In this document: positions 9,602-27,729 of the stretch, one piece after another | Layout: every line of letters begins with the position of its first letter | Numbering within the stretch: the stretch's first letter is position 1 | From: Bolinopsis microptera | Lineage: Eukaryota > Ctenophora > Tentaculata > Lobata > Bolinopsidae | Assembly: GCF_026151205.1 (NCBI RefSeq) | Contig: NC_087076.1 | Span: 23,244,828 to 23,308,827 of the forward strand | Length of the DNA stretch: 64,000 nt | Direction of reading: 5' to 3' | The notes under the pieces: model-generated | The model's database searches: none | The model's input: the letters and a program-made list of their open reading frames with translations, nothing else | What the model was told of the DNA's origin: nothing | Position numbers and translations under genes: made by a program

Positions 9602-9776
9602 CTAGATGAAGAACATGTTGAACTTGTCAGGTCTGGTCACCTGCTCGATCTCCTGCTCAGAGGGCCGGTCCTCTGGAGTGATCATCTCCTGCCAGTCGTA
9701 GCGGGAGAGCATGCGCGCACGTGCAGACGCGCACGCGAGATGTGCATAGTAGACTGGGGCAGGGTAGCTTACTGAC
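9602..9776 (-). CDS. AGO: Argonaute terminal exon with catalytic His
   Basis: The acceptor CTACTACAG ends at 9777. The exon encodes SVSYPAPVYYAHLACASARA, a spacer, and the end FNMFFI followed by TAG (9604-9602). SVS-PAP-YYAH is the signature around the fourth slicer residue. It needs phase 2 from the exon 10 kb upstream, which is what that exon gives. It is notably richer in G+C than its surroundings. Confidence 0.88.
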
Positions 9777-12700
9777 CTGTAGTAGGGTGTTTGGGTTAAG
9801 GCATGTATTGAGAAAGGTGTGTAGGCTAAATACTAAGTTTTTGTAGATGGACACGTTCATTGAAGTTTGAGGATATTGGTAAATTTCTAAAATAGCGTTT
9901 TCGACGATAGTGGCTTAATTTTAGCATCTATTAATCTAGCGTGTTCATAAGTTCTGAACATTAGCCACGTGACCCATACTGACATATGCACTGCTCAGAA
10001 ATAAAATGTATTGCTTTTAGGCACTATAATGTAAAAAATGTCACATTTTTGTGACATTGTTTACCATAGCTGCCCAATTATCATTCCTTGGTCTGAAATA
10101 TAGTAGATTAGGTCAATCTAACAATTATGATACAACATTGGTTAAAGGGCACGGATCGAACGGCTTTAAGGCAATATTTCGTAAACTTTGTCACACTCAG
10201 AATACGAGACCTCTTTTCTACTGTGAGGTGTCCTCAAAACCCTTTCAACTCATTATTTGATGGTTCTTCTGCCAATCATAGCCCTAAAATATGTTGTTTT
10301 GAAAAGTTAGCTAATACATGCACTTGGTTATTGGGAAATGGTGTAAATTCTGTCACATTATATAATGGAATTTGAAATTCTGGGTGAATTTCCGAAATCA
10401 TTTATATCTGATTTTGGTGTGGAAGGCGGGAAAACTCTATATAAGGACGATACACGGATACAGTTGATTCAAGTATAGGGCAGTTGATGTAAACATCGTC
10501 ACAAAATGATACGACATCATAAATAGGTTACATTTTGCGGGGAAAATCTATATAAGGACGATACACGGATACAGTTTATTCAAGTATAGGGCAGTTGTTG
10601 TAAACATCCTCACAAAATGATACGACATCGTAAATAGGTTACATTTTGCGGGAAAACTCTATATAAGGACGATACACGGATACAGTTGATTCAAGTATAG
10701 GGCAGTTGATGTAAACATCGTCACAAAATGATACGACATCATAAATAGGTTAAATTTGGAAGCAATGATTATAGAATGAAATAGTCTGTGATTAACATAA
10801 TATTACATACATTATTAAATGGGCAGGGGTTTTTAAAATTTCCTGTATCTCTGTATTAATCATTTCGGACTGTAATTAGGACTGTTCACGTGAAAGAAAT
10901 TGTATCTAAATTTTACAATGACGTACTCGTATGTGACGAAATTTACATTTCTTGACCCTATTTTGAAGAACCATACCTCGGTTAGAATTCAATGTTCTTC
11001 CAGGAATTATAGGTTGGTTATTGTTTAGCAAAATAGAACTCGAGTTTAACAATGCTGAGTTTAATTTTACTAAGTTACTGAAATGTGACGAAATTTACTT
11101 TTCCTGCCCCAACAGTATAATTTCAATGTGATGAAAAATTGGCATGGGTTTCTACATTTCTTGTATAAATCCATTCCGACTATAATAAGGACTATTGGTA
11201 GGAAATAAAATATACGGGTATATGGCCCCCAGAATATAGGTGGCCCCAAAATATAGGTCATGTTAGTGGATACAGTTCTAACCAAGATAAGCGATACTAA
11301 TGGGATCTGTTACTGCTAGGTTGGAGTAAAACATGTAACTTATGTTTCTGGATAAAAATTTTGGACCTACATGAGGTATTTTGGTATATTTGGTCATGAC
11401 AGCGAAATATTTAAACGATGTTGTCATTTTCTAGAGGGGTAAATATGGCGAAAAATTGTCATGACAAAAATCTGTCCAACACATGCCATTAAGACTACTG
11501 GTATGAGTATAAGTATTATTTTAAGCTATCTTTTCATCGAGACATCTGCAAACTGACAATTTGGAAAAAAGTTATGGCCACCACAATTTTACGGGCCCCC
11601 AGAATATGCCCAAAACCATGCTTTGGGATGCTCTACTTGTAGCTACTAGTCTCCTGAACCCACATATCAAGTTTTATCAAAATTGGATAAAAATTGGCCG
11701 AGTTATGGGATAAAAACAAAAACCATATGCCCATATTTGGGCATACGCACCAAATTTGATCGATTTTGGTCCATAAATTGGTCAAATATCAATATTTTTG
11801 AATGAAACCAACTTTATATGGAAGGTAAGCATATATTACACATTCTCTATGATTATCAGCTCAATATCTACCTAACTGTGGATTCTGTGTTCAAATAATC
11901 GCAAAAAATGAACAAAATCGCCCATATCTCAAACTGACTTCGCTCAAAACAATAGAACTCAATAGGGTTTCAATATTTCCACATGAAATTTTCAGAATCA
12001 ACGTAGAATTGTCTCATGACCTTAAGTTTTGGGACAGAATTTTGAGTTAGGCCTTTAAAAAAATTTGGCGGCCAAAAATGTCTGATTTACAGTCATTGAG
12101 GTGCACATTGTATTGATACAGATAAAAACAGCCCCCCTCAATCATATCTAGGGACACTCCTTCAATCTTATTTAAGTATTTAGTTAAGATCCCTACTAAA
12201 TGAGTGCATGAAAGCTTTTTAACAAGTAAAATTAAAGATTTTACTCATTACGGGTATATGGCCCCCAGAATATAGGTTTTAAAAAAAAAATAGCGACCAA
12301 GATTCTGCATTTTCTCTGTCACCCTGAGCATTAAGGAATGTGGGGTAGTGATGAGAAACAGTTAAAGAACATATGCTGAAGAGATGGCATCATCAAAATG
12401 TATGAAGGTGGAGTATTTGAGGACGATTTTTGCATACCTATATTCTGGGGGCCGTAGTTTTTGATTTTTTGCTATTAAGTATACTCTAAACCTTTTCAAT
12501 TTAGTATCTGGAGCCATTGGCATCATCAATACAGTCTCAGCAACATATTCTGACTGCATATAACTGTCTGTGACAATTTTAGAACAACTTAGGAACAGAT
12601 GTTTGGACCTATATTCTGGGGGCCCTGTTAAAAAATGGTATTTTTACAGGTGAAAAAAAAGTACACTTAAAAACCTAATAATTATTTTCAACTACCCAAG

Positions 12701-15700
12701 AAACATTTAAAGGGTTATTATGTACATATTTACAGCCCTAAACATGCTTAGAAGTAGTTTTAACACCTGTTTCTAAGTGCTCAAAAAACGACCTATATTC
12801 TGGGGGCCATATACCCGTATCTAAATTTTAAAATTACGTATGTGACGAAATTTACATTTCTTTATTTTAAAGAACCATACCTCAGTTAAAATTCAATTTC
12901 CTTTAGGAATTATTGGTTGGTTATTTTTCAGCAAATCAGAACCCAAGTTTAACAATGCTGAGTTTGATATCACTAATTTACCGAAATGTGACGAAATTTA
13001 CTTTTCCTGCCCCAACAGTATAATTTCAATGTGATGAAAAATGGGCATGGGTTTCTATATTTCCTGTATAAATCCATTCTAGCTATAATAAGGGCAGTTG
13101 ATATGAAAGAAAATCTATCTAACTAATGCTATGGCTGATCAAGAAAACAACAATTTTTCAAGAAAACAACAATTTTTTATTTAAATCAATTATAGCAACA
13201 ATTTGAAAAACTTTAAAGTTCTTCTACTCTTCTATTACCATGGAATATACTACGGGTATGGTGACTTGGGCTATTGAGTTGTTTTAGGGGGGGGGGGGGG
13301 GGGGGCCAATGGGTATTTTTTTGTGAAACTTGATTTCGAGATAGCAATTGACCAACAAACTAAGACCAGTGACCGAACTTTTGAGGGGGTCCCGGACCCC
13401 AACCGCCAAACGGTGCGCGCATGGCAGCCACGCCCATATTTGGTCCAAATTAGGCCCAATTTAGCCAAATACCCTGAACATGCCCAAAACCAAGGTTTAT
13501 GGTGCTCTACTTGTAGCTAGTGGTCTCCTGAACTCGTATATGAAATTTCATCAAGATTGGACAAAAAATGACTGAGTTATGAGCCAAAAACCATATGCCC
13601 ATATTTGGGCATACGCACCAAATTTGGTAGATTTCGTCCCATAAATTGGTCAAATATCAATATTTTTGAATGAAACTTACTTTATATGAAAGGTAAGCCT
13701 AAACTACATATTATCTGTAAGTTATAGCTTTATATCTGTTTAAATGTGGATACTAAGGCGAAAAAACCACAAAAAATGAACTAAATTGCCCATATCTCGG
13801 TTCGCGATATTTGCGGAATTGATCTCATTAAAATTGTAACAACTCAATCAGTTTTCAAAATTTTTGCATGAAATTTTCGGAATCGACTCGAAATCGCATT
13901 TCCACCTTATTTTAAATACGGATTTTTGATTTAGGCCTCCAAAAAAATTTGGCGGCCAAATTCCAAAATTATCTCACAAAAATTCAGAATTTGGCCGCCA
14001 AATTTTTTTGGAGGCCTAAATCAAAAATCCGTATTTAAAATAAGGTGGAAATGCGATTTCGAGTCGATTCCGAAAATTTCATGCAAAAATTTTGAAAACT
14101 GATTGAGTTGTTACAATTTTAATGAGATCAATTCCGCAAATATCGCGAACCGAGATATGGGCAATTTAGTTCATTTTTTGTGGTTTTTTCGCCTTAGTAT
14201 CCACATTTAAACAGATATAAAGCTATAACTTACAGATAATATGTAGTTTAGGCTTACCTTTCATATAAAGTAAGTTTCATTCAAAAATATTGATATTTGA
14301 CCAATTTATGGGCCGAAATCTACCAAATTTGGTGCGTATGCCCAAATATGGGCATATGGTTTTTGGCTCATAACTCAGTCATTTTTCGTCCAATCTTGAT
14401 GAAATTTCATATACGAGTTCAGGAGACCACTAGCTACAAGTAGAGCACCATAAACCTTGGTTTTGGGCATGTTCAGGGTATTTGGCTAAATTGGGCCTAA
14501 TTTGGACCAAATATAGGCGTGGCTGCCCTGCGCGCACCGTTTGGCGGTTGGGGTCCGGGACCCCCTCAAAAGTTCGGACACTGGTCTTAGTTTGTTGGTC
14601 AACTACTATCTCGAAATCAAGTTTCACAAAAAAATATCCATTGGCCCCCCCCCTTAAGTAGATTAAGATTAGTAAACCTGCACTTGCATTGTATTTATAA
14701 AAACTAGAAATTAGGCTTCACGGTAAAATGGAGAAGCAGGCTGATCTTGGAGAGAGCAGACCGTAAAGTTTACGCACCCACCAGGGCTACCTACCTACCC
14801 CAGTTGTTCTTTTTGGTTTATCAGCTTGTACGGGTATATGGCCCCCAGAATATAGGTCGTTTTTTGAGCACTTAGAAACAGGTGTTAAAACTACTTCTAA
14901 GCATGTTTAGGGCTGTAAATATGTACATAATAACCCTTTAAATGTTTCTTGGGTAGTTGAAAATAATTATTAGGTTTTTAAGTGTACTTTTTTTTCACCT
15001 GTAAAAATACCATTTTTTAACAGGGCCCCCAGAATATAGGTCCAAACATCTGTTCCTAAGTTGTTCTAAAATTGTCACAGACAGTTATATGCAGTCAGAA
15101 TATGTTGCTGAGACTGTATTGATGATGCCAATGGCTCCAGATACTAAATTGAAATGGTTTAGAGTATACTTAATAGCAAAAAATCAAAAACTACGGCCCC
15201 CAGAATATAGGTATGCAAAAATCGTCCTCAAATACTCCACCTTCATACATTTTGATGATGCCATCTCTTCAGCATATGTTCTTTAACTGTTTCTCATCAC
15301 TACCCCACATTCCTTAATGCTCAGGGTGACAGAGAAAATGCAGAATCTTGGTCGCTATTTTTTTTTTAAAACCTATATTCTGGGGGCCATATACCCGTAA
15401 TGAGTAAAATCTTTAATTTTACTAGTTAAAAAGCTTTCATGCACTCATTTAGTAGGGATCTTAACTAAATACTTAAATAAGATTGAAGGAGTGTCCCTAG
15501 ATATGATTGAGGGGGGCTGTTTTTATCTGTATCAATACAATGTGCACCTCAATGACTGTAAATCAGACATTTTTGGCCGCCAAATTTTTTTAAAGGCCTA
15601 ACTCAAAATTCTGTCCCAAAACTTAAGGTCATGAGACAATTCTACGTTGATTCTGAAAATTTCATGTGAAAATATTGAAACCCTATTGAGTTCTATTGTT

Positions 15701-18700
15701 TTGAGCGAAGTCAGTTTGAGATATGGGCGATTTTGTTCATTTTTTGCGATTATTTGAACACAGAATCCACAGTTAGGTAGATATTGAGCTGATAATCATA
15801 GAGAATGTGTAATATATGCTTACCTTCCATATAAAGTTGGTTTCATTCAAAAATATTGATATTAGACCAATTTATGGACCAAAATCGATCAAATTTGGTG
15901 CGTATGCCCAAATATGGGCATATGGTTTTTGTTTTTATCCCATAACTCGGCCAATTTTTATCCAATTTTGATAAAACTTGATATGTGGGTTCAGGAGACT
16001 AGTAGCTACAAGTAGAGCATCCCAAAGCAAGGTTTTGGGCATGTTCAGGGTTTTTGACCAACCTATATTTAATTCTGGGGGTCGTATAGACCTATATTCT
16101 GGGGGCCCGTAAAATTGTGGTGGCCATAACTTTTTTCCAAATTGTCAGTTTGCAGATGTCTCGATGAAAAGATAGCTTAAAATAATACTTATACTCATAC
16201 CAGTAGTCTTAATGGCATGTGTTGGACAGATTTTTGTCATGACAATTTTTCGCCATATTTACCCCTCTAGAAAATGACAACATCGTTTAAATCTTTCGCT
16301 GTCATGACCAAATATACCAAAATACCTCATGTAGGTCCAAAATTTTTATCCAGAAACATTAGTTACATGTTTTACTCCAACATAGCAGTAACAGATCCCA
16401 TTAGTATCGCTTATCTTGGTTAGAACTGTATCCACTAACATGACCTATATTTTGGGGGCCACCTATATTCTGGGGGCCATATACCCGTATTGTTATATTT
16501 ATGGACCCCAAGTCACCACACTAAGAAGGAGTATGTATAAAAAAAATAAGCTAAGTTAATATCATCATATCAGTTTAAAACATTAAATGTTAAGTTGAGG
16601 ATTGACTTTCCTAGTTAATTTAATGGTTCAAACGTTTGGGAATATAATAATGTTGGTATTTGTATCTGCTGCAGCAATATCGATATGTCATTTGTCTAGA
16701 AAATTTTCGCCACTTCAATAGATATTGGGTCGGCAATTTGGTGAGTGATTGATGAACTGGTTTGGTCTGTGACTGAGTGAGGGGCGATGTGAAAGTTGTG
16801 GTAAGTCCAGGTGTTACTATTGTTGATGGATTGGGATCCCAGGATATGACATTACTTGTATCACGTTTTGATGTGTCTATAGTACAATACAACGAGTATG
16901 GAGTGCGAAATTTCATAATTCGAAATATCTCAGATATACAGTGGTATTTGTACAAGTTTTGAACAGTAAGCAATTTTAGTCGATTAAAAATGGGCTTGGT
17001 GTGCTCCTTTTCGAAAAAAGCAGCTCCTAACCTCTGTTTTGTATAAGGTCTGGCTCGTGCACAAGTGGCATGTTTGTCAAGGTATGCATTTAGGTCTCCA
17101 AAAAGGATTCTTATACAACGTTTCTGAGTTATGAACAGCTTATCGTTTGGTTGGTCTTTGAGGGCTGAGCCCCAAACACTTATTCCGTAAGCAAGATGTG
17201 ATTCCAATAATGCAGAGTATATTTTTTGGTAGTGTTCCCCTGGAACTGAATGTTTAATCCTGTTAAGTGCTCCTGTAGTGGATCTAATTTTTTTTCTTAG
17301 ATATTCTATATGTGGGCCCCAGCTAAGTTTTTCATCAATTACTACACCAAGAAATTTGGTGTTGCTAACCTTGACAATTTTGTGTCCATTTATAAATATT
17401 CCTTGTGATTTGTCATATTCATTGGCATACGGCCTAACTCTGGCGCAGGTTTCATCAGATTCATATGCAGGTTGAAAATGTATGTAGCAGCATTTAGACA
17501 TATTTATATGTAAGAGATTACTTCTCATGAATTTGCATACGAAATCAAGAACTTTATTGGCCTTCAAGTATGTTGATTCTTTGGACGGTCCAGTGATAAA
17601 TATATTTGTGTCATCAGCATAGAGCACAAATTTGCATTCATCGCCTTTGTAACAGTTTATTATGTCGTTCATATATGATAAGAAAAGTAGAGGGCCTAGT
17701 ATGGAACCTTGGGGAACTCCATATTTTACATTCATAGTCTCTGATGTAGTGTTGAGAAATGAAACATACTGTGATCTATCGGATAAGTAGCTTTTTAGAA
17801 GTCCTAGAGCTAGACCTCTAACCCCATAATTTTTTTGATGTGACGAAATTTACATTTCTTGCCCCTATTTTGAAGAATCATACCTCAATTAGTATATAAT
17901 GTTACTTTATCACCATCACTATGTCGATAAATTAGTTATTTTGCCAACACGGAGCAAATAAAGTTATAATATTTTTTTGTGACGAAATTTACAAATTTTT
18001 ACCCTGTTCAGGTGTTGAAATTTTGCCAATGTTAACATATCACTGCCATATAATAATTTATATGACCGGCGTATGGTTGAAATATTGTTAATTGATCCAT
18101 AGTACGTAATATAGGGTGTTTAAGTTGGTATACTAATATTTACTCAATTTCACACATGTTGAGATATCATACAAATTTATGTGACTAAATTTACCTATTT
18201 CTGCCTTCTGTATTTGTATTTGCCTATAACAATGAAATATGTGAACAATTCCAAACACATTCAGCTCACAAAATAATGCTAGACTATTCGGCATTTCTTG
18301 TCAGGATGTCATAAACATCCCTCATATAAATTTCTTAAATGTGTGACGGAGTTTACATGGTGCTACCATTTAACGAAAAAAGTAGCTAAATATGTAGATA
18401 ATAGTCATATGCAACTATCCTATAAATTTGAAATTCGAAAATTTGGTCAAACACGGCAACAAGGGGTCCATATAAACTCTGTCACATTTTTATAGTGTGA
18501 CAAAGTTTACAACTCACTGCCGGCCGCATTTAAGCGATATCTTATCGTCTGATAAAGATATCGTTATGCGACAAAGTTTATCTAGAGGATGAAACGATTA
18601 TCCTAACCATTGAGGGTTTATATAGTTTTATAGTGTGACACATTTTACATCATCGTGCCATTTAGTAGGGTCACTAATATTTACCAATATCCTCAAACTT

Positions 18701-21700
18701 CAATGAACGTGTCCAGATAGGATTCATATCAGTTTGTTCACAAAAATGTGGATGTGCAGTTAGAATTGCTAGATTGTGCAGGCAACAATGTTACCAGGTT
18801 ATGGTTGTTTCTACCCATTATAATCCCATGGTTATCACCAGTCTAAACTGGTGTTAGGACCAACCCTATAATGAATCCAGGCAATAACCTTATCATTATC
18901 AATAGGTTCAATAGGTTCAATTAATCAACCCCTCTCTGTTTGATTACATCATTACACGTTTAACTCTCCTTGACTATAATCAGTCACGTCATTACCATAG
19001 AAACACGTGACTTTATCACGTGACTATAGTTACCGATATACTCCTGACACGTGACATATTAGATCACCACATTTTAGAGATAACATGCCGGGTAATATCA
19101 GATCATCAGATGATGTAATGTTAGCGCAAGTTACTTGGCTCATTGCCAAGTACCTACTGAGAAAACTCCAGATAGCAATAGGTTTGTTTCTTATGTTCAC
19201 CCGTAATCCGACCTAGCCAGTGATATGAATTTTTTAGCATTGAAAATACCAGAAACTGAAAACTCATTATTTCAGAGTTGCAGTGTGTTTGAAGGAGCAC
19301 TGTGCCAGGTGTTAGCTCATGAGGTGATGTAATCGTTAACATGGTTACAGTTTCTATTGTTGTGAGTGAAGCTCATCCTTATCTAGCAACTCTAGCTTCA
19401 GTTCATGACGTTACCTAGCAACTCTAGCGTCAGTTAATCAGTTCATGACGTAGGTTGTAATACACTCACTAAGTTACACGAGTGTCTCACATTTTATAAA
19501 CAACAACCTGTACACAATGAAACTGTGTGGACTGTGGAGGTACCGAATATGGACTAAACTGGTTATTAGTTTTAATTTAAAACTTTTATCGTTATGAAGT
19601 AATGAGAACTGACGTGAGGTACACTGATAATTTGTAAGCACAGAGTCCTTCAGTCCTTTCTAATAGAAAGAATAATTAGAACTACTGAATGTAAATGGAG
19701 ACGTTTCTTACAGTGGCCCCAAATCTTGCTTCAAGTTTAAAAGTTCAAAAGAAGAAATATACAGTAATATTTACTAGGTTAGTAAGGTAAAATAAACGAA
19801 CCTAGAACATCTAGCGTATGTGTGACAAAGGTAGAAGGACAGCATCTGCCACATATCTATTTTTAGCTTGTTGTCATCATACAGAACGTAGTAATGACAC
19901 GGTACGTTCGTTCCTGTGAAGTATAGAGGTTTTAACTGATGTGAGTACACGTGGTTACTGGTTACCACTGGTTACCATGTGGTTACTGGTTACCACTGGT
20001 TACCAGTGGTTACCAGGTGGTTACCACTGGTTACCAGTAGTTACCACGTGGTTACCAGTGGTTACCAGGTGGTTACCAGTGGTTACCAGGTGGTTACCAG
20101 TGGTTACCAGGTGGTTACCACTGGTTAGAGATTGGGTTGGTGGCAGCAACATGACCTTCTCATAATGCCGTAATGCGAAAGAAAAAGTTAGAATGTAGTG
20201 TGACGGTAAAACACACAAAGGAAGTAAATATCTCTCCGTGATAGAAAAGCTAGAAATAAATCACAAATTCATTCAGCAAAAGAGAACAGACATGAGGAAT
20301 GAATAACACATGGTTACCATGGTTACAGTAAGTGATGGTTACCATGGTTACAGTAAGTGATGGTTACCTTGTATGGCCTGCTGAGAGTTAAGGTAGAAGT
20401 TCATGTAATTAGGAGAGACCACCCCTGTATCCACCACAGTGCCAGGCTCCATGTTATCCACTTTTCCTCCCTTCTTCACCACAAACCTCTGTTTGTGTCG
20501 CTTAGTACACACAACTACAGATATCCTGGGTTTATAGTCCGCTCGGAGCTCCGTACACGCGTCCTGGATCCCACCTAGCTCCTCCATCACAGTGTTCTCA
20601 AACTGTCCCTCCGATACTCCGTCTCTGTAGTAGATGATCTTACCAGGCGGACGCCTGTTTACTTGTATGAACTCTCTCAGGATACTGACCATTACATCCT
20701 TCATGTCTCTGATGTACTCAACAGACATCTTATCCCCCTCCGGATACAAAGCTTTTACTCTGGAAATGTATTTAGCAGCGGAGGGATCACTTGTTGCGAC
20801 TACGGCCGCGATGGAAGGTTTCTGATCGGAGCGAGTGAAGTGAGTCACGTCAGCTCCCACTATCATAACAGGCTCGTTGAATATCTTCTGGGGAAGACCT
20901 TGGATGTTAATCCCGAAGTTAACTCCACCGATCTTGGCGTTCAGCTTCTTCAGGATATTGTCCATTGTGTTCATATCTGGATGAGCTGGCCTGTTATTCC
21001 TAGGGTTAGAATTGATGCCGCAGACCTTTTCAATAGTTTGGAGCTTGATGCACTGAGTTCTCTTGGTGCACAGCTCTGTCAGCTTCACTTTACCGTAAGT
21101 GCTCTCGTCGTTGTCCAGGATTATGAAGTTATAAGCTGACTGCATACCTTGTAGGATGGGTCCGAGGTTGTGTATAGTGCTAAAACTGAAGGGAGGGTTT
21201 TCCCCAGCGATGTTTATTTTCAGAGCTCTAGCTCGCTGAAAGATGAATTCCAGAAATCTATCATGGAGTTCTTTAGTGTAACGAGTCTTTGGGAGCAGAC
21301 ACACGAACCCTAGCTTGACTTTGACAGGTATCTCCCCGGACTTTTGAACAGCGGACATGGTCCAGGCTCCCCTCTGGACGCTATTCTTGGGATTTGGATC
21401 CATCTTGGGTGGATCCAGCACTCTTCCATTCAGCTCTATTGCTTTGGGGTTTATCTGGAACCCATAGTTTGACCCTGTGAAGCCCGAGGTGACTTTGCTA
21501 ACCTCTTCAGCGGACTTCTGGATATCCTTCATCTTCTCGTCTGGTTTCTGACATGCTTTTCTGATCATGTCTCTCTGTTGGGCTGAGTCTAGTGTAGTGA
21601 AGTAGGGCTGGTTGGGGAGCAGGGTACAGAGCTCCATAGGGATCTTGGTTTTACCCCCTGCCTTTACCAAGGGTAGATCTAGATGAACAAGTTTTACATT

Positions 21701-23493
21701 TTTGTAAGAACCCTGGAAATACTTGGCTACCGATATGTTAAGGTCTTCAATGATGGTACTGTTTGCAGATTGATTGTGTACTCCCGTGATCGTGTATTTT
21801 CTCTTGTAGCCCAGATGATTTGTTTCAACTTTGAGACCTTTAAGGATACCATTGAAGTACCTAATTTGCTTCTGATCAAGGCTCCTGGGGAGTTGAGACC
21901 GAGAATTTCCCCCTCTTCCTCCGCCTCCTCTGCCTCCACTGCTAGAGTTTTCCAGATTACTCTTCACAAAGTCCAGGAGAGTTCCACCCGGGTATATGAC
22001 CTGGTGAGTTTTGAGCACTTTGATAGTTATACCAAAGTCCTTGGAGGGGGTGATAGACGCGGAGATACCACTGTAGAGTTTCAGTCCACCAGGGAAATCT
22101 GGAGCACGTTGACCTGAGTTGAAGAAGTTCCTCTTGACGGTAACGTACGACCCATTATTGAAGCCTTGGGAGAGGACTATATTCAGAGCGTTGACAGCAC
22201 CAATGGGGATCACTCCTCCGACTGTTCTTATGGCGTCTAGTATCTCCTGTACGCTGGTTTTAGCCACCGGACCCTGCACTTCTACCTCGAATTCAGTTCT
22301 GCCGAGCTTTATTTTCCTGAAGAAGAAGATTAACGTAGCAATGATGTACAAGTTATTGATGGTTAGAATGGCATAAAAAGCTTTTTGAAAATCACACAAG
22401 TATCTAGTAACCCTCATTTGCTCATTTGCTCAGAACCTAGTTTAATTATCCCCCAGACTTATTGGAATATTCCAACCAGCTCCACTTCGACCATATTACT
22501 ATATTGTAACAAAGGTACACAGCTGTCAAAAGTCAAGCTGGTTGACTGCTCAATCTCAGTTTATGAGGCTATACTTCCTACAAACATCCTGGTCCCAAAT
22601 CCACACACCAATTATTTGACAGGGCTATTTCCACAGCTAATTAGGGTTACCGAAACTGCCCTATATATATATATATTTATCTATGTAAAGAGGTAAATAT
22701 TGTTACCTCTTTGTTAAAACCAGCTATCGAAAATCCCATTAGAACCACCCGGGCACCGTCTCGATTTACAATCATCCCTAAATACGTGAATAAGACAAAA
22801 CATAAATTACCTTGATATATTGACGCCCTCTCCTGATGGAGAGTACAGGTTCTTCTTTCCATCGTAGGCCCACTCAGCTCCGAGATTCAGCTGTTTGTAC
22901 ACCTCATCACAAACTCCTTTAGAGGGAACACTGTTAGCGTTATTATCGTTATTCCTGTTGGGGTTCACGATGGACACGTCAAACTGGAAGATACTGAGGG
23001 AGGGTTTCTTGAAGTTAATCTGGAAGCTGTTGGAGATCAGCGCGACATTCCGGCCTTTTGTTCCTGTAGCGTTCTGCCTGATCATCTTGTTCTTTGGGGG
23101 AGGGGTGACAGTTCCTGAAATCATGGAAATGGTGGAGTTGGATAAACTGACATGTTGATAAACTTTATCATATTTAACAAACGCTAATATATTATCACAT
23201 TAAAAATTAAGAAACAATAGTTATCTAGACGAAGCAGTTATCTTCTAGTCATGCTACATTGCTACCTGACTAATGTTCAGTCGTCGACGTACTATCAAAT
23301 GTTTAACTAACCTCAACAAGTGTCATAAACATAATATGCTGTCATTAACATAATATGCTGACTAATTAGGACTGGCAATGTAGAGGAACGCATTATTCCG
23401 TGTCGAAATACTGAGTGCGTAATAATTAGAACAAAGCAGATAAATGTTAAAGTAAAGTAAAGTATTAAAGTTCTTACCTGATGAAGATTGCAT
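9602..23493 (-). CDS. AGO: Argonaute protein, five coding exons
   Basis: Exons on the minus strand are 23493-23478, 23114-22811, 22316-20368, 19913-19802 and 9776-9602. Every junction has GT/AG and matching phase (1, 2, 1, 2), giving 2556 nt, or 851 codons plus stop, close to the usual length of animal AGO-clade proteins. The order is N domain, PAZ (about residues 208-338), MID, PIWI. MID carries YGKVK (514-518) and TQC, the 5'-phosphate pocket. PIWI has D596 (GADVTH), E640 (SVEYIRDM), D672 (YRDGVSEGQF) and H806 (VYYAHLA), so the slicer tetrad DEDH is complete. The ending NMFFI resembles the hydrophobic last residues of the family. The protein should bind small RNAs and cut matching targets in the cytoplasm. 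Odd points are an RGG-rich insert in PAZ and a 10,025-bp last intron filled with transposons. It is AGO-like rather than PIWI-like by the YHVLYDDN and QAIQGT motifs. Confidence 0.9.
10430..10760 (+). repeat. Three tandem 111-bp repeats with TATA-like boxes
   Basis: Units start around 10430, 10541 and 10652. Each contains CTATATAAGGACGATACACG, GTATAGGGCAGTTG and ACAAAATGATACGACATC. The copies are almost identical. CTATATAAGG resembles a TATA box, so the array could hold repeated start sites. No coding sequence is present. Confidence 0.8.
11215..12816 (+). mobile_element. TIR element A, CGGGTATATGGCCCCCAGAA ends, TA duplication
   Basis: The ends read CGGGTATATGGCCCCCAGAA and its reverse complement, flanked by TA on both sides. 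About 1.6 kb, no plausible protein. The end motif GGCCCCCAGAATATAGG recurs inside near 12250, 12435, 12610 and 11590. It sits between two direct copies of a host repeat containing GTGACGAAATTTAC. Confidence 0.7.
13287..14653. mobile_element. Long inverted-repeat (foldback) element, poly-G/CCAATGG ends
   Basis: It begins with a G run plus CCAATGG and ends with CCATTGG plus a C run. The left arm (about 13306-13962) and right arm (about 13987-14645) are near-perfect reverse complements around an approximately 25-nt centre. Transcripts from either strand would fold into a hairpin of about 650 bp. Its middle is related to parts of elements A and B (shared CCCATATTTGGGCATACGCA). The matching open frames at 13323 and 14627 are mirror images of each other and not genes. 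Confidence 0.85.
14831..16487 (-). mobile_element. TIR element B, inverted copy of element A
   Basis: It has the same CGGGTATATGGCCCCCAGAA ends with TA flanks and is a near-identical reverse complement of 11215-12816 along most of its length. The pair can form a 1.6-kb duplex in one transcript. Small insertions near 16050-16090 distinguish it from A. Confidence 0.7.
16620..17843 (-). mobile_element. 5'-truncated jockey/CR1-like LINE fragment
   Basis: On the minus strand, coding sequence begins abruptly near 17843 (KNYGVRGLALGLLKSYLS) and runs to the stop at 16620. It holds YGVPQGSILGPLLFLSYMND (RT motif B), LYADDTNIFI (catalytic YADD, about 17615), KFLGVVIDEKLSW and a C-terminal region ending in a Tyr- and Arg-rich tail. 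The frame is intact where present. The fingers and endonuclease are missing, so it is a dead 5'-truncated copy inside the Argonaute intron. Confidence 0.85.
17840..18648 (+). repeat. Subterminal array of a 14-bp GTGACRAARTTTAC motif
   Basis: Forward motif copies start at 17840, 17979, 18181, 18343, 18497, 18568 (one base off) and 18635, and a reverse one at 18472. On the other side of the unit they occur at 10031, 10181 and 10343 (reverse) and 10051, 10933, 11085, 12842 and 12988 (forward). Spacing is roughly 70-200 bp. Such series near transposon ends are often transposase-binding sites; here that is inference. Confidence 0.6.
18720..19801. other. Remaining part of the last Argonaute intron, with CACGTG and RFX-like sites
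   Basis: Three CACGTGAC boxes lie between about 19003 and 19050, and a full RFX X-box match GTTACCTAGCAAC lies at 19410-19422 next to a duplicated TCTAGCAACTCTAGC. No gene is seen. The reading frame at 19154-19342 has no supporting features. Confidence 0.35.
19410..19422 (+). promoter_or_regulatory. RFX X-box-like site
   Basis: GTTACCTAGCAAC fits the X-box consensus GTNRCC-N(0-3)-RGYAAC exactly. It is intronic, and a second half-match (ATCTAGCAAC) lies about 30 bp before it. No proof of use. Confidence 0.3.
19802..19913 (-). CDS. AGO: Argonaute exon 4 (PIWI, YHVLYDD/CHTYARC)
   Basis: The acceptor ACTTCACAG ends at 19914 and the donor CTAG|GTTCGT starts at 19801. The 112-nt exon encodes TNVPCHYYVLYDDNKLKIDM, then LSFYLCHTYARCSR, both standard in the PIWI domain of Argonautes. 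Its phases (1 in, 2 out) match the flanking exons exactly. Confidence 0.9.
19940..20367 (-). repeat. GGTTACCA minisatellite filling Argonaute intron 4
   Basis: From about 19948 to 20128 the sequence is a run of GGTTACCA/GTGGTTACCAG units of about 11-12 bp. A second block at 20308-20367 repeats GGTTACCATGGTTACAGTAA twice and ends at the splice donor. On the gene strand the unit reads GGTAACC, the same as the real 5' splice site AAG|GTAACC. The reading frames seen across this block are artefacts of the repeat. Confidence 0.85.
20368..22316 (-). CDS. AGO: Argonaute main exon (part of L1/N through most of PIWI)
   Basis: The acceptor CTTCTTCAG ends at 22317 and the donor AAG|GTAACC begins at 20367. 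The exon encodes residues 107-756, including PAZ, MID and three of the four catalytic residues. A low-complexity insert, NSSSGGRGGGGRGGNSRSQ (about 230-248), splits PAZ between LLDFVKSNLE and the ILKGLKVET strand. Reading the frame past either end gives intron sequence, so the longer uninterrupted frame 20348-22417 is not the real exon. Confidence 0.92.
22317..22810 (-). other. AGO: Argonaute intron 2
   Basis: A 494-bp intron from GTAATT to CTTCTTCAG. AT-rich with a short (TA)n. Nothing else recognised. Confidence 0.7.
22811..23114 (-). CDS. AGO: Argonaute exon 2 (N-terminal domain)
   Basis: The exon runs from acceptor TGATTTCAG (ending 23115) to donor AAG|GTAATT (at 22810). It encodes GTVTPPPKNKMIRQNATGTKG and the N-domain strands ALISNSFQINF and FQFDVSIVNPN, matching the usual start of Argonautes. 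Phases fit both neighbours. Confidence 0.88.
23115..23477 (-). other. AGO: Argonaute intron 1
   Basis: A 363-bp intron from GTAAGA to TGATTTCAG, AT-rich, without further features. Confidence 0.7.
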
Positions 23494-26212: not shown

Positions 26213-27729
26213 TATGTTTTAAATCTTACTATACGTTTTTCAATCGGACGTTTTTTAATTTATATCTTGACCATTACTCATAAGCCCCTTTCTAATCAGC
26301 ATTTTCGCCATGGCCACTTTTTTTAGACTCCTTACATAAACGGCAAATATTGCAAAGCAATAATGAGGCAATGAGGTGAAGAAATTGTTATGAAAGGAGA
26401 GCAAATATTCACCAGAATAAATCGTAAGACAGCTTAACTGAATAAGCCGTTGATGATCGATCAAAGGAAAAAATTGTACATAATATTATGATGCAATGGA
26501 AATTTTGAATATGTCCTACCAGTAGGACATATTCAAATTTCAGCTTTCCGAGACCCAAATTTTACTGTTTTGACTGAATTTTTCTTGAATGACCATCTTA
26601 CAAGGTGATAAATTAATATCATATAAAGACCAGCATTTGATGTGAGAGTCGGAATTTAACATTAACTTAGAGCTTGCGCTTGGTCAGTTGGAGAGTTTCC
26701 AAAAAGAGTTCTGCCTTAGTTCATGTAATTTCTGTATTGATAATGATAATATACACATTCTATTATGACATTTGAACTGTTTCACATTTATTTTTCACAA
26801 TTTTGTTTCACATTTTTGTTATCATATCGGGGCCATGTAATTGCGGGCACATTTTACTGTGCAGTACCGTGTTTGGTCTCCCGTCAGATTTTACAGACGG
26901 GGCAATAATTTATTCGAGTTTATTTTATACGTTATAATTGCACACTCTGTAAAGTTTGAAAAGTATTTAATAAAAAATGTGTAATATAGCCTACTGGACA
27001 CCTGCTAGTCTGAAGCTATATTCGACTATTCGAGGCAATGTAAAATCATGTATGTTCAAATTTCTCATCATGAGTACCACACATTAAGAGTTACTCTCCA
27101 TCTCAAATTAAGTAGCACGTGTTAACTGATGATCTAGCACCCGTGTTGTAGTAGCTCTGCTAATGTTCAGTCCTGATTACTGATGCAAGGGACACTTTAC
27201 CTCTAAAGGAAAGAGATTATACAGGAACGATTGACCATTCTGTTGTTTGCTAATATTCAGTTTTCGGTCGTGCTCATTACTAATGCAAGGGCCACTTTTA
27301 GTAATTATAGCTATGATTGACCATTATGTTATGAAATCTAATGGATCCTCTCTGTGTCACCGTCTGTGCTAATAAGAGTCGACTAACGCATAATTTGTGT
27401 ACCAGCTGAAGTATGTGTCTTCGTTTTTTCATTTATGTCTTTTTACTACCGTGGAATTAACGAGCAATTTTCCGAATATTTATTACTATTTTTGTATTTA
27501 TGATAAGTAATATAATTGTCTTTTCTCATACAAAAAATTGTCTTTTCTCATGTAATGGTATATAATGACGTTTAAAAAAAGGATCAATTTTCTTGTCTCT
27601 ATCGAATGGATTTCTTGACATTTGCTATTACAGCCTTAGCAAGTTCAGCTTTACAGGTTTTTAAATAATTGGTGTCCATTATTCAAAGCGGTTGTTAACT
27701 CTTGATTTTGTACCCTTAGTAACGAAAAA
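26213..27729 (+). other. Upstream block of GPCR copy 1
   Basis: Contains a perfect 16-bp-arm hairpin at 26504-26537 (TTTGAATATGTCCTAC arms). From about 26690 on the sequence closely matches the region before GPCR copy 4 (41290-42108). Conserved pieces are TGTGCTAATAAGAGTCGACT (near 27365) and a stretch ending TACCCTTAGTAACGAAAAA right before the ATG. A TATAAAG-like box is at 26631. Confidence 0.5.

Follow-up and report, generated by a model that had tools for sequence, protein, structure and literature searches.

INTRODUCTION

Transposons with terminal inverted repeats (TIRs) that lie nested within one another, and the intronic elements that resemble miniature inverted-repeat transposable elements (MITEs), are recognized by their inverted ends, target site duplications (TSDs), many copies and empty sites. 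Most MITEs are shorter than ∼1.37 kb. In Drosophila, the hairpin-RNA loci that give rise to endogenous small interfering RNAs (endo-siRNAs) combine a long self-folding inverted repeat with transposon sequence. The introns of plant DCL1 contain the hairpins miR838 and miR1047, for which feedback is proposed in excerpts of PMC4429486. In Caenorhabditis elegans about 25% of the expressed genes have an inverted repeat in an intron longer than 1 kb, and the inverted-repeat genes are enriched (40%) among those reduced after the loss of a factor that limits double-stranded RNA (dsRNA), according to excerpts of PMC4282642. Here we describe the last intron of an Argonaute (AGO) gene of the ctenophore Bolinopsis microptera, in which a near-perfect palindrome, called P below, lies between opposed copies, A and B, of another repeat. 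The gene was analysed within a stretch of 64,000 nt of contig NC_087076.1 (positions 23,244,828–23,308,827 of the forward strand), referred to as the window.

The arrangement agrees with the nested TIR transposons and MITE-like elements in its terminal inverted repeats, its target duplications, its many copies and its empty sites; P, with a length of ∼1.37 kb, exceeds most MITEs. It resembles the Drosophila loci in its long self-folding inverted repeat and transposon sequence, and the C. elegans genes, whose intronic repeats are dsRNA and editing substrates (PMC4282642, in part), in having opposed repeats in one intron; the B. microptera locus is described here from its DNA sequence. It shares with DCL1 the position of a hairpin inside an intron of a gene that acts in a small-RNA pathway; the DCL1 hairpins are, however, described in the accessible part of PMC4429486 as microRNA (miRNA) precursors, whereas P is recent transposon DNA that is lacking in the sister AGO gene. 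We conclude that the inverted repeats of this intron are very probably nested selfish mobile elements without a dedicated role in the control of AGO.

RESULTS

The AGO gene and its paralogue

Joining the exons of the AGO gene (Table 1) gives a reading frame that completes the PIWI domain, with a stop ending at 9602. An initial annotation of the window had placed all of the repeats in the last intron of this gene, and the verification of its GT and AG boundaries at 19801 and 9777 bore this out. The interval delimited there, 10031–18715, is nearly that of a single transposon, H (9849–18714).

We found a paralogue of the gene on the same contig, ∼0.5 Mb away (locus L005, G000:C5:22749500-22757500). 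It is 97.0% identical to the window's AGO gene in the large exon, which is free of stops in both copies, and 98.3% identical over the 175 nt of the last exon. Two genes 97% identical in the large exon and ∼0.5 Mb apart represent a recent duplication. The last intron of the paralogue measures 1,566 nt versus 10,025 nt in the window's gene. At the position of H it has one AGAT and no H, and it showed no match to any part of 9849–18714. Since the 97%-identical paralogue has an empty site, H arrived after the duplication of the AGO gene, barring a traceless excision. The last intron of the paralogue also contains a separate insert of ∼0.4 kb.

Elements nested in the last intron

Practically all of 9849–18714 could be assigned to H, A, a fragment of a long interspersed nuclear element (LINE), P and B. 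The ends of H form a perfect 37-bp inverted match when one flanking T is counted. Among the 264.65 Mb of genome searched for element copies, the end sequence was found 476 times in forward and 481 times in reverse orientation (957 in total, at most 3 mismatches), and a reversed-pattern control gave 0. All eight compact copies, chosen for ends that pair within 3 kb and measuring 2.28–2.98 kb, are flanked by a 4-bp TSD, as are three of three longer ones, making 11 out of the 11 other copies inspected. H therefore has the terminal inverted repeats, the TSD and the empty site expected of a TIR transposon. Reverse-transcriptase-like frames were seen by eye in one of the longer copies (L047). The motif TGTGACGAAATTTAC and its variants occur in H (10181–18634), on the minus strand near the left end and on the plus strand toward the right end; these are perhaps transposase binding sites.

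The LINE fragment lies in H. Its reverse transcriptase frame (16620–17849) extends a few codons into H, and the RVT_1 match of this frame is partial, covering only profile positions 106–205 of 205. The best 40 of 411 candidates in the search with the LINE all matched, the window copy included, so that a reverse transcriptase and many copies support the assignment. The element probably has no long terminal repeats and is probably 5′-truncated. The LINE insertion is lacking in five of five H copies, the same five that are without A.

A and B are copies of one 1.65-kb element. They match in two blocks, one of 1,222 nt (11598–12819 with 14829–16050) and one of 364 nt (11244–11607 with 16094–16457), each at 99%, or as a single gapped match at 96.1% over 1,672 positions. 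Gaps aside, the identity is 99.4% between A and B and 99.4–99.9% between them and six relatives. The best 40 of 1,572 candidates of this family comprised A, B, 37 near full-length copies and 1 partial copy, 95–97% identical with gaps counted. Among the eight compact H copies, the A site was displayed in five and was empty in all of them; the alignment across it is clean in four, and in the fifth it runs through a different repeat unit. The B site is uninterrupted, with a single TA, in four of four LINE copies. A and B thus show the TA target duplication of Tc1/mariner-like non-autonomous elements, of which they are candidate members.

The description of the palindrome as lying between two opposed 1.6-kb copies was correct in positions and orientation, and such repeats far exceed what chance would produce. 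The flanking of P by A and B is nevertheless not one structure, because these are separate insertions in different targets, and they are opposed because two members of one family inserted independently in opposite orientation. A single composite A-P-B element, either moved as a unit or built for hairpin formation, would agree with the symmetrical placement of A and B on either side of P and with a similarity of ∼76% over some 500 bp between A/B and the arms of P. The host of A is however H, and that of B is the LINE; a separate TA belongs to each of the two insertions, and P has its own TTAA target. The match of A or B to six other members of their family is at least as good as that between A and B, and members of this family are found at many other places. 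The separate empty sites ruled this candidate out, and we leave it next to no probability. A repeat family specific to AGO was likewise ruled out, by the genome-wide copies of P, H and A.

In the order of events that we propose from the nesting and the empty sites, the AGO gene would have been duplicated within its chromosome, and H would then have entered the last intron of the window's copy. The LINE fragment and A would have inserted into H, in either order, and P and B into the LINE, again in either order, with A arriving before or after this last step.

Table 1. Positions in the window of the AGO exons, the last intron and the elements nested in it
Feature	Position	Strand	Remarks
Last AGO exon, stop at its end	9602–9776	-	From splice sites and reading frame
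Last AGO intron, 10,025 nt	9777–19801	-	GT at 19801, AG at 9777
Left TSD of H (AGAT)	9845–9848		Right copy at 18715–18718; single AGAT in the paralogue
H, mosaic of a TIR DNA transposon, 8,866 bp with nested inserts	9849–18714	.	37-bp inverted ends, copies, empty site
H's own pieces, approximate	9849–11214, 12818–13139, 17836–18714		
Three tandem units of 110–111 bp within H	10426–10757		
A, TA-flanked non-coding element in H	11215–12817	+	53-nt gap relative to its family
LINE fragment with two inserts, in H	13140–17835	-	TSD TGAT or GAT
P, non-coding palindrome targeting TTAA, in LINE	13287–14653	.	
B, second A-family copy in opposite orientation, in LINE at TA	14831–16487	-	
Penultimate AGO exon, with the HYYVLYDDN part of the PIWI domain	19802–19913	-	
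Large AGO exon, with the PAZ domain and most of PIWI	20368–22429	-	Open frame 20348–22429; last exon base 20368; 5′ limit approximate

The palindromic element P

P consists of two arms of 674 nt (13297–13970 and 13980–14653) that are 98% complementary and 9 nt apart. The near-perfect hairpin reported for this position in the initial annotation was thus recovered, with limits that are exact when the G/C runs at the ends are counted. No frame of at least 100 aa is listed within 13287–14653. Centres of P were detected 81 times in the genome with at most 3 mismatches, the AGO copy included, and 38 of them were exact; the control gave 0. In the search with the P arm the best 40 of 1,887 candidates were scored, and the full-copy counts for P, A and the LINE are lower bounds. 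TTAA flanks P on both sides in six of six other loci inspected, and in four of four LINE copies the P site is uninterrupted with a single TTAA. P therefore has the target duplication, the dispersal and the non-coding nature of a TTAA-targeting non-autonomous element, possibly of the piggyBac or the Kolobok superfamily, between which TTAA alone does not decide. Its hairpin form is a consequence of the palindromic nature of the whole family.

When seven copies were compared between the G/C runs, a single one of 1,344 columns was private to the AGO-intron copy. The arms of this copy mismatch at 11 positions, and at 10 of these one or more of the other copies also have unlike arms when compared by eye, with a one-base offset in L003 allowed, the arms often exchanged and the G/C end runs excluded. 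A stricter count by script, which required the same index and direction, gave 1–4 of the 11 per copy. We did not see selection keeping the arms of P alike at AGO, the arm differences being mostly shared with other copies. The few private changes in P and the 99.4–99.9% identity of A and B to their relatives point to recent activity. P was observed in two forms, one in the window copy and L003 and the other in L002, L004, L008 and L041, which differ in that the outer arms are swapped with respect to the centre, as though the interior of the palindrome could flip.

Inverted repeats at other loci

We compared the AGO intron with other loci by counting inverted repeats within 10 kb whose arms were at least 200 bp long and at least 80% identical. 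Of 10 arbitrary 10-kb stretches, a small sample not confined to introns and with C5, C12 and C13 left out, 4 contained them, and in three stretches the arms reached at least 500 bp; one of the three is a copy of P. In the first 60 kb of the window, three of six stretches contained them, that of the AGO intron included. No such repeats were found in seven stretches at other PIWI-domain loci, the paralogue included, each stretch covering 8–10 kb and possibly falling short of a whole gene; seven of eight such loci were covered, with C13:15865886 outside the sample. One of the arbitrary stretches (L038, G000:C4:10000001-10010000) has nested inverted repeats with arms of up to 1,334 bp that are 99.6% alike, comparable to those of the AGO intron.

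Several points weigh against our interpretation of the intron as a nest of mobile elements without a role in AGO control. The limits of both samples just described are among them. The left target copy of the AGO-intron P reads TTTTA instead of TTAA, its left G run has 19 residues versus 9–11 in the inspected copies, and one base adjoining the left TA of A is unlike that of the H copies. No transposase was recognized in the three longer H copies when frames of at least 120 aa were inspected by eye, without a Pfam scan. A clean excision of H from the paralogue is possible in principle, though less likely than an insertion into the window's copy. The interpretation is based on DNA sequence, which would leave a function of the intron dsRNA possible.

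Small-RNA potential of the intron

The AGO-sense (minus) strand of P was predicted in silico to fold into an almost unbroken hairpin of -1227 kcal/mol. The long dsRNA that had been expected from the AGO pre-mRNA therefore stands as a prediction, in that the arms would pair if transcribed; the modelled fold follows from the palindrome itself and is not evidence of use. The dsRNA potential of the intron is real but generic.

A search of the genome for RNase III domains detected two, both in one open frame of 1,626 codons, and no other match. As far as the RNase III domains alone are compared, this set resembles the one reported for Mnemiopsis, where Dicer is present and Drosha is not, according to excerpts of PMC3563456. 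The accessible part of PMC6211395 states that Mnemiopsis has no miRNAs and many endo-siRNA clusters, the multi-mapping ones tending to be structured and to lie on transposons. Domain searches of the B. microptera genome also detected several PIWI-domain genes, RNA-dependent RNA polymerase (RdRP) domains and 13 matches to the adenosine deaminase domain (on C1, C4, C6 and C8), 6 of them long, in frames of 468–1,245 codons. An expansion of RNA-editing enzymes is possible from these deaminase matches. One RdRP domain, nearly complete, lies at G000:C1:16121174-16122844 in an open frame of 1,918 codons.

Incidental siRNAs from the intronic copies of P are plausible, given the predicted fold of the P RNA and the presence in the genome of paired RNase III domains as well as RdRP and deaminase domains. 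Their source copy would be hard to tell since the arms of P are nearly the same everywhere, and with dozens of P palindromes elsewhere the AGO intron would be one source among many. We propose that the intron is transcribed and spliced out, and that its dsRNA probably undergoes degradation or editing, or at the very most contributes a few siRNAs against transposons.

The initial annotation had gone further and linked the level of AGO to the supply of siRNAs. In such a scheme Dicer would cut the hairpin of the AGO pre-mRNA into siRNAs directed against transposons or the intron, and their supply would scale with AGO expression. The near-perfect fold of P fits this scheme, as do the two RNase III domains in one frame and the RdRP and PIWI-domain genes of the genome. 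However, the hairpin consists of mobile elements, it is lacking in the sister gene and in all seven stretches at other PIWI-domain loci, dozens of equivalent palindromes exist elsewhere, and P shows little locus-specific change; in addition, spliced introns are usually nuclear and short-lived. We consider such scaling very improbable. It is just as hard to believe that the window's AGO copy has come to make both Argonaute and transposon-directed siRNAs after a recent insertion that gave its transcript long hairpins matching several recently active transposon families. A feedback on AGO dosage is unsupported because the sister gene is without the insert and there is little locus-specific change. 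An autoregulatory role of the DCL1-miR838 type would lead one to expect the hairpin in related AGO copies as well, but the site in the paralogue is empty. If the coupling were true, it would represent a joint output of AGO and siRNAs in a ctenophore line reported to be without miRNAs and to have endo-siRNAs as the most abundant class. The assertion that no such arrangement had been described holds in a narrow sense only. Among the papers listed from the open-access literature in PubMed Central, titles and abstract openings gave no transposon inverted repeats in an Argonaute intron that feed siRNAs, which is a weak negative, and excerpts of PMC4429486 already describe the DCL1 hairpins.

A different effect would be compatible with the nested-element interpretation, namely that the intronic dsRNA, or the 8.9-kb insertion as such, reduces or changes what this AGO copy produces. 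The routes could be slow splicing or editing, retention in the nucleus, or silencing that spreads from the elements, and the compact paralogue would then be the main gene. The 13 adenosine deaminase matches with their 6 long members, the length of the last intron (10,025 versus 1,566 nt) and the enrichment of intronic inverted repeats given for C. elegans in excerpts of PMC4282642 speak for such an effect. The large exon is nevertheless free of stops in both AGO copies, and we regard both the altered output and the proposed routes to it as unlikely, although less so than the coupling of AGO and siRNA supply.

Independent insertions, each recognizable by its empty site, can leave a small-RNA gene with a conspicuous inverted arrangement. 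Should siRNAs arise from this intron, the near-identical AGO pair, one copy with and one without the hairpins, would constitute a natural test of a coupling between AGO and its guide supply.

Elsewhere in the window, positions 26966–53690 are occupied by an array of repeated stretches, of which the best pair with a receptor stretch is 95% alike. At least one frame for a rhodopsin-type receptor, 338 aa long, lies within the array.

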